A stretch of 64,000 bases of DNA from Pseudomonadota bacterium. GTDB lineage: Bacteria; Pseudomonadota; Alphaproteobacteria; Micropepsales; Micropepsaceae. Of this stretch, positions 2,149-21,047 are shown piece by piece. Every line of letters begins with the position of its first letter. The stretch's first letter is position 1. The notes beneath the pieces are model-generated. The model was not told the origin of the DNA. It searched no databases and was given only the letters and a program-made list of their open reading frames with translations. The position numbers and the translations under genes are program-made. The stretch lies in NCBI GenBank assembly GCA_021804785.1, contig JAJZGY010000004.1, positions 1-64,000 on the forward strand. Reading direction: 5' to 3'.

Positions 2149-2222
2149 TGGGGGATCGTCTAACGGTAGGACCGCGGACTCTGACTCCGCTAGTCTAGGT
2201 TCGAATCCTAGTCCCCCAGCCA
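2149..2222 (+). tRNA. tRNA-Gln (anticodon CUG)
   Basis: This is a 74-nt cloverleaf with encoded CCA. The acceptor stem TGGGGGA pairs with TCCCCCA, G is the discriminator, and CCA ends at 2222. The anticodon stem GCGGA/TCCGC (2174-2178, 2186-2190) encloses the loop CTCTGAC, giving anticodon CTG (2181-2183), which reads CAG. The T-arm has GGTTCGAATCC. It stands alone and is followed by the AT-rich hipBA segment, a common arrangement for integration next to a tRNA 3' end; I found no second copy of the 3' end in the window. Confidence 0.97.
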
Positions 2223-2338: not shown

Positions 2339-2360
2339 AATTCGCCAAATTTGTTGATTT
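2339..2360. promoter_or_regulatory. Putative HipB operator O1 (weakest copy)
   Basis: Left arm AATTCG, then CC-rich/AT spacer of 10 nt, then TGATTT. It fits the pattern AAYTCG-N10-CGAKTT with one mismatch in the right arm. It starts 40 bp before the next copy. Confidence 0.55.
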
Positions 2361-2378
2361 AAGACGGTTCTTTGAGAT

Positions 2379-2400
2379 AACTCGCCGAATACAACGAGTT
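2379..2400. promoter_or_regulatory. Putative HipB operator O2 (perfect inverted repeat)
   Basis: AACTCG-N10-CGAGTT is a perfect 6-bp inverted repeat with a 10-nt spacer. It lies 46 bp (start to start) before O3. Confidence 0.7.
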
Positions 2401-2424
2401 AGTATGTACTGATTATACTTTAAT

Positions 2425-2446
2425 AACTCGCCAAAATATACGATTT
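2425..2446. promoter_or_regulatory. Putative HipB operator O3
   Basis: AACTCG-N10-CGATTT has one mismatch from a perfect repeat. It lies 40 bp before O4, within the AT-rich stretch that probably holds the promoter. Confidence 0.65.
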
Positions 2447-2464
2447 ATATTGACAATCGGCCAA

Positions 2465-2486
2465 AATTCGTCATACTTGACGAGTT
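2465..2486. promoter_or_regulatory. Putative HipB operator O4 abutting the hipB start
   Basis: AATTCG-N10-CGAGTT ends one base before the ATG at 2487. No Shine-Dalgarno sequence is visible between it and the start, so bound HipB would cover the translation start or the 5' end of a leaderless message. Confidence 0.65.
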
Positions 2487-2837
2487 ATGGAAATCACTCA
2501 AAAAAACACCGATACCGCCATCCTTGAAGAGCTTGGTCGCCGCCTCGCTCAGGTCCGGCTTGACCGCAATCTGACCCAGGGAGACTTGGCGAACGCTGCC
2601 GGGCTTTCCAAACGGACAGTTGAACGCTCCGAGACAGGGGGGTCGATTCAGCTTTCAAGTTTCATCCGCTTGCTCCGCGCACTCGGCATAGCCCAGAACT
2701 TCGACCAACTTCTTCCGCCATTGCTTGCCAGTCCAATGGAACAACTGAAGTTGCGCGGGAAAGAACGCCGCCGCGCATCGTCGCGCAAACAGGCAACTCA
2801 AACTCCAAGCGAATGGTCTTGGGGGCGCGATAAGTGA
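2487..2837 (+). CDS. hipB: HipB-family antitoxin, XRE-type repressor
   Basis: A 116-aa protein. A Cro/C1-type helix-turn-helix spans about residues 14-68 (LGRRLAQVRLDRNLTQGDLANAAGLS, then SKRTVERSETG). A basic linker and a C-terminal tail ending WSWGRDK follow, as in many HipB-like antitoxins of the long-tailed kind. By family it binds its partner kinase and represses the hipBA promoter. The start at 2487 is fixed by the operator ending at 2486; no Shine-Dalgarno sequence is visible. Its stop overlaps the hipA start by GTGA, so the two are translationally coupled. The segment is more AT-rich upstream than its surroundings, consistent with acquisition. Confidence 0.88.
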   Translation: MEITQKNTDTAILEELGRRLAQVRLDRNLTQGDLANAAGLSKRTVERSETGGSIQLSSFIRLLRALGIAQNFDQLLPPLLASPMEQLKLRGKERRRASSRKQATQTPSEWSWGRDK

Positions 2838-4144
2838 CGACTGTTGCATCAGTCAATCTTTGGGGCCGGCGAATCGGCGCCGTCTCACTCGGCGACAACG
2901 AAACATACGCGGCGTTCCAATACGACGCTGCCTTCGCCCGAAGCGGCATCCAGGTCTCGCCGATCACAATGCCGCTGTCAGAGAAAATCTATACGTTTCG
3001 GGACCTACCAGTGCGCAGCTTCCATGGCCTCCCTGGTTTGCTCGCAGATTCGCTGCCAGACAAATTCGGAAACGCACTCATTGACGCATGGCTCGCGACG
3101 CAGGGTCGCGCGCCCGAGAGCTTCAACGCTGTTGAACGCCTTCTATACACGGGCGCACGAGGTATGGGCGCGCTGGAATTCAAACCCGCAATCGGACCAA
3201 GGGCTCGCACGTCGCAGAAGATCAAGATCGACGCTCTTGTCGCACTCGCATCCGAAGTCCTGACGCATCAAAAGACCCTTCAAACGTCTTTCGCAGGCAG
3301 CAACAAGGAACATGCGCTTCGGGAAATCCTACGCGTCGGCACTTCAGCCGGCGGTGCGCGCGCGAAAGCCGTGATCGCATGGAATCGAACAACCAATGAA
3401 GTGCGCTCGGGCCAGGTATCAGCGGGACCGGGCTTCGACTACTGGCTTCTCAAATTCGACGGTGTGGTTGGCAACAAAGATAAGGACCTGGATGACCCAA
3501 AAGGATTCGGGGCAATCGAATTCGCTTACTACAACATGGCTCTTGCCGCCGGAATAACCATGAGCGAGTGCCGGTTGTTGGAGGAAAACGGGCGCCGACA
3601 TTTCATGGCGAAGCGTTTCGACCGGCTCGACGACGGCACGAAACTGCACATGCAATCGCTAGCCGCTCTGGCGCACTATGACTTCAACAGCGCGGGCGCC
3701 TACTCCTACGAGCAGGCGATCTTCACGATGCGCCAGCTGGGTCTATCTATTGACGCGGTTGAGCAACAGTTTCGACGAACGGCATTCAACATCGTTGCCC
3801 GCAATCAAGACGACCACGTTAAGAACATCGCCTTTCTGATGGATAAAGCTGGCACGTGGAACCTGTCGCCCGCATTCGACATGACATACAGCTACAACCC
3901 ATCAGGTTTGTGGACATCGCAGCATCAAATGTCGATGAACGGCAAGCGTGATAGCTTCACGTTGGACGACTTCAATGCCTTTGCCAAAACGGCAGGAATG
4001 AAGCGCGGTCGGGCCAAGGTCATTTTGAACGAAGTGCAAAGCGCAGTGGCCAGGTGGCGGACCTTTGCGGCAAAGGCGAACGTGATGGATTCATGGCGCG
4101 AGCAAATTGCTCAAAATCTGCGTCTGTCGATGCCACCAAGCTAG
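2834..4144 (+). CDS. hipA: HipA-family serine/threonine kinase toxin
   Basis: A 436-aa protein starting at a GTG that overlaps the hipB stop. The N-subdomain-1 region (LPVRSFHGLPGLLADSLPD, residues about 56-75) is followed by a HipA-type kinase core. The mobile Ser loop is TSAGGARAK, with Ser171 in the place of the autophosphorylated Ser150 of E. coli HipA. The catalytic loop is NQDDHVKN, with Asp326, and the metal-binding Asp349 lies in AFDMTYS. E. coli HipA phosphorylates glutamyl-tRNA synthetase and slows growth; the target here is unknown. All key residues are present, so the toxin looks intact. Confidence 0.92.
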   Translation: MTTVASVNLWGRRIGAVSLGDNETYAAFQYDAAFARSGIQVSPITMPLSEKIYTFRDLPVRSFHGLPGLLADSLPDKFGNALIDAWLATQGRAPESFNAVERLLYTGARGMGALEFKPAIGPRARTSQKIKIDALVALASEVLTHQKTLQTSFAGSNKEHALREILRVGTSAGGARAKAVIAWNRTTNEVRSGQVSAGPGFDYWLLKFDGVVGNKDKDLDDPKGFGAIEFAYYNMALAAGITMSECRLLEENGRRHFMAKRFDRLDDGTKLHMQSLAALAHYDFNSAGAYSYEQAIFTMRQLGLSIDAVEQQFRRTAFNIVARNQDDHVKNIAFLMDKAGTWNLSPAFDMTYSYNPSGLWTSQHQMSMNGKRDSFTLDDFNAFAKTAGMKRGRAKVILNEVQSAVARWRTFAAKANVMDSWREQIAQNLRLSMPPS

Positions 4145-19668: not shown

Positions 19669-21047
19669 ACGTGGCGGGACCTGCATGGGCCGCAAGTCCG
19701 GCCCAGCATGTGCTCCGGCGATGGCGCTCCTTAAAAGAGCGGATGCAGCCGGATGCCATTGAGCAGACTGCAAATACAAGAAACCTCAGGCTTCTGGTGT
19801 CACTGCGCTGGCTGGCGGTGGCCGGCCAGATCGTCATCATCGGTGTGGCGCGGCAATGGCTTCATCTGGATCTGCCACTGTTGCAGATGGCCACGGTCAT
19901 ACTGTTTCTCATCGGCCTCAATCTTGTCAGCCTCCATCTTTCCCGCAGCGCCATACCGCTTTACGACGCGGAGCTGTTCCTCGCCTTGTTGCTCGATGTT
20001 GCGGCGCTAACGGTGCAACTTTATCTCAGCGGCGGAGCGACCAACCCTTTTATCGGGCTCTATCTTCTGCAGGTCATTCTCGGCGCTGTGCTGTTGAGGT
20101 CGCGCTGGACCTGGACCTTGTTTGTTCTGACTGGCGTGTGTTTTCTGGGCCTGATGCGCTATTACCGGCATGTCGGACTGGACCATTACGCCAAAAGCAG
20201 CGTGTTCAGCTTCATGGACCTGAGGGTTGAAGGCAGCTTTGTCTCCTTCGTGCTGGCGTCTGTCTTGCTGATTTTTTTCCTTTCGCGCATCAATCGTAAC
20301 CTGCGTGAACGCGATCGCCGCCTGTCGGATCTGCGCCAGCAGCGTGCCGAAGAGGAGCATATCGTGCGTATGGGGCTGCTGGCCTCGGGCGCAGCCCATG
20401 AACTGGGTACTCCGCTCTCCATGCTGTCTGTCATCGTCAACGACTGGCTGCGTGTTCCAGAGCTGGTAAACAACGTGGAACGCGCCGCGGATATTGCCGA
20501 GATGCAGCAGGCACTGGGTCGTTGCAAGCAGATCGTCTCGCGCGTGCTTCTGACAGCTGGAGAAGCCCGTGGTGAGGAGGCTGAACGCACCACGCTGATC
20601 GGTTTTTTTGACCGGATGGTGGCCGATTGGCGCTCCAGCCAGTCTCCGTCCTGGCTGGAATACACCAACGCAGTTACGAGCGATGCCTTGATCGTGTCCG
20701 ACACGGTTCTGGTCCAGGCCCTGTTCAACACCTTTGACAATGCACTCGAAGCATCGCCCGACTGGGTCGCCATCACGGTCGCTTGTGACGAGGAATGGGT
20801 TGTTATTGAGGTGCGTGACCATGGTCCGGGGTTTGCTCCCCATATTCTGGCAAATTTTGGCAAGCCTTATCAGTCGACAAAGGGAGTCGACGGCTGCGGC
20901 CTCGGGCTTTTTCTGCTCGTCAATGTCATACGCAAGCTGGGCGGCACTGTGACGCCTTCCAACGATGCTGCCGGTGGTGCAGTCGTTATCATGCGACTGC
21001 CTCTCAAGGCACTCTCGCTAGAGGATGGCAGGTATGACCTCCGATAA
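19665..21047 (+). CDS. regB: RegB/PrrB/ActS-type redox sensor histidine kinase
   Basis: A 460-aa sensor kinase with six predicted membrane helices (about 45-215). It carries the RegB ubiquinone-site motif GGATNPF (123-129). The H-box is HELGTP with His245. Cys287 in GRCKQIV aligns with the redox-active Cys265 of Rhodobacter RegB (RCRDIL). A HATPase domain follows (N-box NTFDNALEAS, DHGPGF, GCGLGLFL). By family it reports quinone redox state by phosphorylating RegA. The ATG at 19665 overlaps the cyoD stop, so kinase and oxidase share a transcript. Confidence 0.93.
   Translation: MNVAGPAWAASPAQHVLRRWRSLKERMQPDAIEQTANTRNLRLLVSLRWLAVAGQIVIIGVARQWLHLDLPLLQMATVILFLIGLNLVSLHLSRSAIPLYDAELFLALLLDVAALTVQLYLSGGATNPFIGLYLLQVILGAVLLRSRWTWTLFVLTGVCFLGLMRYYRHVGLDHYAKSSVFSFMDLRVEGSFVSFVLASVLLIFFLSRINRNLRERDRRLSDLRQQRAEEEHIVRMGLLASGAAHELGTPLSMLSVIVNDWLRVPELVNNVERAADIAEMQQALGRCKQIVSRVLLTAGEARGEEAERTTLIGFFDRMVADWRSSQSPSWLEYTNAVTSDALIVSDTVLVQALFNTFDNALEASPDWVAITVACDEEWVVIEVRDHGPGFAPHILANFGKPYQSTKGVDGCGLGLFLLVNVIRKLGGTVTPSNDAAGGAVVIMRLPLKALSLEDGRYDLR

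Follow-up and report, generated by a model that had tools for sequence, protein, structure and literature searches.

Conserved HipB-type operator palindromes and a probable autoregulatory promoter with a predicted leaderless message in a chromosomal hipBA operon

Introduction

HipBA is the founding persistence module. Structures 4yg1 and 5k98 belong to the operator system of E. coli K-12 type HipB, and 4pu3 and 4pu4 to the HipBA-operator complex of Shewanella oneidensis, a ternary assembly of HipB, HipA and operator. In the literature searched, few systems have had their HipBA operators described, and these vary from one system to the next. E. coli HipB was reported to bind four operators cooperatively (PMC3376134). 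For Caulobacter hipBA1 and hipBA2, three palindromic operators are reported (PMC7029023, PMC8545095), and Legionella HipBST has three operators separated by 53-bp gaps, the six-base repeats of which have another sequence that matches neither known HipBA operator (PMC10653801). Leaderless messages whose promoter carries the operators of an autoregulator are also known, including those of the restriction-modification C protein C.Csp231I (PMC4824078) and PaaR2 (PMC8630535).

Here, we have analysed a hipBA locus in a 64-kb window (the term is used below for the whole stretch of DNA analysed), in which four palindromes, named O1 to O4, precede hipB. It shares with E. coli hipBA the arrangement of four palindromes as two pairs, a Cro-like HipB and a HipA kinase encoded downstream, and in our own alignment the half-sites of both systems are in nearly the same register relative to the dyad. 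The half-site itself is different (TCGYCA in the window versus TATCC in E. coli, as in TATCC-N8-GGATA), and no match to the E. coli operator was found near hipB at up to two mismatches. Thus far the locus agrees with the first-pass annotation, which proposed the four-site logic of E. coli with another half-site; however, the geometry differs as well, since the sites are spaced 40/46/40 in the window and 28/39/28 in E. coli (the latter measured in this analysis). Moreover, the last site adjoins the ATG in the window whereas it ends 21 bp before hipB in E. coli, and the window differs further in having the -10 hexamer inside the last operator and a message predicted to be leaderless.

The other systems are comparable in part. 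Caulobacter hipBA resembles the window in having several regularly spaced inverted repeats before hipBA, although three sites rather than four are reported for it. In Legionella HipBST, the HipB operators are likewise regularly spaced and overlap the promoter, and binding has been shown by gel shift, whereas the toxin is split, the sites are three in number, the gaps are longer, and O2 and O3 are asymmetric. HipB of Shewanella oneidensis has the same fold as the window protein and is a distant relative of it (about 27% in the fold match), a comparison that covers the protein fold. C.Esp1396I is also a fold match of the window HipB; unlike the window, C proteins and PaaR2 belong to different operons with no HipA kinase, and C proteins also act as activators. 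Our literature search, which some key operator papers lay beyond, found no description of a TCGYCA half-site, a 40-bp lattice, an operator at the start codon or a residue-base code. Taken together, the window array is best regarded as a putative HipB autoregulatory array of known type that differs from E. coli in half-site, spacing and promoter placement.

The hipBA module and its surroundings

Both genes of the module lie on the forward strand. hipB (2487..2837) encodes a 116-aa Xre/Cro-type antitoxin with matches to HTH_31 and HTH_3, that to couple_hipB falling below the cut-off, and hipA (2834..4144) encodes a 436-aa HipA-family kinase toxin for which both HipA_C and Couple_hipA are above the cut-off. 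The HipA sequence contains the motifs RNQDDHVKN and SPAFD. The small HTH antitoxin gene is located directly upstream of hipA, the GTG start of which overlaps the hipB stop by 4 bp. The ATG at 2487 is the sole reasonable start of hipB, given an in-frame TGA (2478-2480) just upstream; no Shine-Dalgarno-like run is present within the 18 bases before it, as had been noticed earlier.

In the AlphaFold2 model of HipB, the HTH blocks, including that of the recognition helix, have a mean pLDDT above 90. Structure comparison matched the fold of this model to HipB of Shewanella, P. fluorescens, Legionella and E. coli, and also to restriction-modification C proteins. Two C-terminal tryptophans, W110 and W112 (W110-S-W112, codons at 2814..2822), are invariant in 52 aligned sequences and may be compared with W88, which is conserved in E. 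coli HipB (PMC3376134). Sequence searches with HipA found only HipT(Lp)-type structures, implying that this branch of HipA has no close solved relative. Gene order, domains, HipB fold and C-terminal tryptophans all indicate that the locus is a hipBA module of the type II toxin-antitoxin class.

The upstream neighbour is a tRNA-Gln(CTG) gene on the forward strand (2149..2222, identified by ARAGORN), which bounds a 264-bp intergenic region upstream of hipB. This region is AT-rich (44% GC versus 61% for the window) and may be acquired DNA. A mobile island formed via tRNA duplication was considered and rejected, there being no second tRNA-Gln 3′ end within the window. The same genome encodes a second HipA_C protein (L142, G000:C57:251-901) with 27% identity in the matched stretch, and its locus has no TCGYCA operators.

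Operator array in front of hipB

Direct reading of the sequence and a pattern search both confirmed four 22-bp palindromes starting at 2339, 2379, 2425 and 2465. The upstream pair consists of O1 (2339..2360, AATTCGCCAAATTTGTTGATTT) and, 40 bp from it, O2 (2379..2400, AACTCGCCGAATACAACGAGTT); O3 (2425..2446, AACTCGCCAAAATATACGATTT) follows at 46 bp from O2, and O4 (2465..2486, AATTCGTCATACTTGACGAGTT) at 40 bp from O3, so that the 40/46/40 spacing initially described is exact. The last base of O4 immediately precedes the hipB ATG (2487-2489), again as originally read. The proposal that the sites are near four helical turns apart does not hold for all of them, 40 bp being approximately 3.8 turns and 46 bp approximately 4.4 turns at 10.5 bp per turn. 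The formula first proposed for the four copies, AAYTCG-N10-CGAKTT, needs two amendments: although O2 has perfect 6-bp arms, O1 carries one mismatch (TGATTT instead of CGAKTT), and the N10 spacer is not free sequence, as the matrix from relatives described below places a conserved YCA inside it and extends the half-site to TCGYCA.

Within the 64-kb window, AAYTCG-N10-CGAKTT has no further match at up to one mismatch; the pattern matches number 12 in all against 13.5 expected, those with two mismatches being at chance level. Among the matches listed for the whole genome, O4 is the sole perfect match to AANTCGYCANNNNTGRCGANTT. A regulon elsewhere in this genome was accordingly rejected as a candidate, since the listed matches include no second perfect site and those with two mismatches occur as single sites and not as arrays.

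A 22-bp palindromic weight matrix was trained on 79 relatives with the window left out, and its core is TCGYCA-N4-TGRCGA with A/T at both ends. When 63,979 positions of the window were scored with this matrix, the top four were O4 (23.8 bits), O3 (20.8), O2 (16.7) and O1 (15.7), followed by a score of 11.9 bits. This next site is a lone one at 20185-20206 within a predicted reading frame, and is probably due to chance. Even a matrix derived from 19 Verrucomicrobiota loci alone gave the top three ranks to window sites, with the remaining one at rank 5.

Conservation of the array among relatives

Scanning 84,980 genomes yielded at least 80 hipBA loci whose HipA is 67-73% identical to that of the window; judged by record titles they span about ten phyla, a breadth to be read loosely because the titles given to some metagenome bins do not look trustworthy. 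Within the window's own order, HipB has weak homologues (best 39%), which makes a comparison among close species impossible. The comparative search that had been suggested upstream of related hipB genes bore out the motif, the paired array and the ATG-adjoining site, all of which are kept across these phyla, and the motif is visible even by eye in the upstream regions.

Among the relatives listed, neighbouring sites are 40 or 41 bp apart in 113 intervals, and the remaining intervals are mainly 26-28, 36 and 43-50 bp. The gap between the two pairs is 26-28, 36-38 or 42-50 bp, and these gap clusters stem from few clades. The full array (40/41, gap, 40/41) is present in 37 of the 78 loci listed, with 46 bp as the commonest gap and exactly 40/46/40 in ten loci; in the other 41, a complete four-site array is absent at the threshold used, most of them having two or three sites. 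The last site ends no more than 2 bp from the start codon in 68 of the 78 loci, and control windows placed elsewhere in the same loci contain 0.02 sites each. The outer base of the right half is far less conserved in the last operator than in the others (44/70 paired versus 166/186), perhaps as a compromise with the transcription start.

More distant relatives of HipA have half-sites of other sequence. For example, the distant hipBA modules L185 and L188 (on alphaproteobacterial plasmids), L117 and L118 have R at the position of E46 and half-sites of the AGGYCA/CGGYCA type. In addition, hipBA modules of the same family were observed on predicted viral contigs in IMG/VR (L148, L149 and L150), two of which have L or V in place of E46 and T as the corresponding base of the operator. 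A scan of viral contigs with the HipB alignment gave one weak locus.

Covariation of operator bases with HipB residues

K42, R43 and E46 belong to the recognition helix of the AlphaFold2 model (residues 42-49; the codons of K42 to E46 are at 2610..2624 on the forward strand), and all three covary with the operator. To avoid circularity, only the inner bases and the 40/41 spacing served to locate sites, and the outer triplet was tabulated afterwards against the recognition-helix residues. E46 is accompanied by C at -6.5 in 221/228 cases and Q at the same position by C in 44/52, while R goes with G (13/16) and I, L or V with T (13/16). Similarly, R43 occurs with G at -5.5 in 300/308, whereas in the two loci with S at position 43 only one of eight half-sites has this G, and K42 together with E46 is associated with T at -7.5.

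The types are intermixed in the HipA tree, where two well-supported clades apart from each other have T at -6.5 (L112/L113 and L149/L150) and R43 is lost in two separate rows (L148 and L016). The independent contrasts that back the covariation number 1-2 on well-supported branches and, depending on the residue, 2 to 11 on all branches; given so few on the well-supported ones, the covariation is strong by pattern and does not reach formal phylogenetic significance. This correspondence of residues and bases ties HipB to the sites, and it lends strong indirect support to the prediction that HipB binds and represses its own promoter.

Promoter and predicted transcription start

A consensus scan of the forward strand returned a sigma70-like TTGACA-N16-CATACT (2450-2477) as its sole match. 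The -35 hexamer TTGACA (2450..2455) lies between O3 and O4, with 3 bases separating it from the end of O3, and the -10 hexamer CATACT (2472..2477) lies inside O4; the latter matches the consensus at 4/6 positions and the two together at 10/12. The transcription start predicted from this promoter, about 6-10 nt downstream of the -10 hexamer, falls at 2483..2487, so that O4 would cover both the -10 hexamer and the start. Because the start is thereby placed inside O4, 0-4 nt before the ATG, the hipB message should have next to no leader and is probably leaderless.

As a simple hexamer-count scan proved noisy in the relatives, positional averages relative to O4 were used instead. TTGA occurs at the offset found in the window (-15 from O4) in 16/35 short-gap or pair-only relatives versus 1/29 long-gap ones, and CAT at the -10 offset of the window in 17/35 versus 5/29. 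In long-gap relatives, TTGACA tends to lie at the O2 edge, with a TATAA-like -10 adjoining O3, and some of them have a Shine-Dalgarno sequence within the last operator or next to it. In L049, L067, L069 and L077 the last operator itself contains the Shine-Dalgarno sequence (e.g., TCGCCAAAGGAGACGA), so that HipB and the ribosome would bind one and the same stretch. The window combines a long gap with the leaderless-type promoter, and so does L074. The earlier idea of an operator lying over a leaderless start therefore survives for the window, whose promoter would place the start in O4, and the position is kept in many short-gap or pair-only relatives; however, the leaderless form is not family-wide, many 46-gap relatives having their promoter between O2 and O3.

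Alternative explanations

That O1 to O4 are chance palindromes in AT-rich DNA is vanishingly improbable: the intergenic region is indeed AT-richer than the window, but a single site scoring 15 bits or more turned up in only 3 of 5,000 shuffles of these 264 bp and two such sites in none, the matrix blind to the window placed all four sites first, and exactly the same spacing recurs in ten relatives. It is also very improbable that another host regulator, rather than HipB, binds the sites. Such a view can point to the fact that the link between HipB and the sites comes from sequence comparison, yet the motif accompanies hipBA in about ten phyla, the operator bases covary with the HipB helix, and the perfect site in this genome belongs to the hipBA array alone among the matches listed. 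Inverted repeats of this kind might otherwise be RNA hairpins serving attenuation or translation control and not DNA operators, and O4 as RNA does fold into a 9-bp stem. The pairing test on the last operator led us to reject this reading, which is extremely improbable: the commonest combination at -4.5 of the last site is a C-A mismatch (23/70), paired cells at this position are no more frequent than in shuffles, and the opposite halves lack pair covariation, the bases covarying with HipB residues instead. Furthermore, other copies of the motif lie in untranscribed DNA upstream of the promoter, and the O4 stem would be absent from a leaderless transcript.

A closer competitor accepts the operators but lets transcription start upstream of or within O3, so that O4 would lie in a leader of approximately 50 nt, where HipB bound to it might act as a roadblock or an O4 hairpin might affect translation. 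The centre gap of the window is 46 bp, and many relatives with this gap have TTGACA at the end of O2 and a TATAA-like -10 abutting O3 and seem to start transcription upstream of O4, with a leader of about 50 nt; O4, if transcribed, would form a strong hairpin beside the AUG (z about -3.0); and an isolated TATACT on the forward strand (2414..2419), before O3 and near the place of the -10 in long-gap relatives, is a possible, if weak, remnant of such a promoter. We nevertheless consider an upstream start unlikely, since this TATACT has no -35 partner, the window has no Shine-Dalgarno site, and TTGACA-N16-CATACT sits exactly at the leaderless position.

Proposed regulation and significance

Considered as a whole, the locus is very probably explained best as the autoregulatory promoter of a chromosomal hipBA operon with four HipB palindromes and a leaderless message. 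The sites, their layout, conservation and covariation, and the promoter-like hexamers are shown by the sequences. For the binding of HipB and its cooperativity, for repression, and for the start of the transcript, its leaderless translation and the coupling of hipA, we infer the following course of events. HipB dimers, probably with HipA as co-repressor, would bind the four TCGYCA-N4-TGRCGA palindromes as two 40-bp pairs, with specificity read mainly by K42, R43 and E46. The proximal pair would bracket the promoter, O3 just upstream of the -35 hexamer and O4 over the -10 hexamer, the transcription start and the bases up to the ATG, and occupation of both would block RNA polymerase; the distal pair, O1 and O2, may make binding more cooperative by way of a higher-order assembly of HipB and HipA. 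Once the HipB level falls, a hipB message with a leader of 0-4 nt would be made and translated from its 5′ AUG, and translation of hipA would be coupled to that of hipB via the overlapping GTGA.

A broader proposition, which in our judgement could equally well prove right or wrong, is that the operators of one widespread HipBA family form a conserved lattice, in which two 40-bp pairs flank a centre gap of variable length (26-28, 36-38 or 42-50 bp), and that this lattice supports a DNA-bridging assembly of HipB and HipA with a geometry unlike that of E. coli. HipB specificity would have been switched repeatedly by one to three substitutions in the recognition helix, all operators of an array changing in step, and the promoter would have moved between two positions, giving rise to leadered and leaderless forms.

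The family offers a natural recognition code within one kind of HipB (C for E, G for R and T for I, L or V, as well as G for R43) that can be read over about 80 loci, and its operators keep a fixed geometry that differs from the E. coli one. Two open questions thereby become directly testable, namely how specificity changes in an autoregulator whose several operators must change too, and which higher-order HipB-HipA complex is supported by the 40-bp pairs. In addition, repression would be linked to the first antitoxin codon by an operator that covers a leaderless start.
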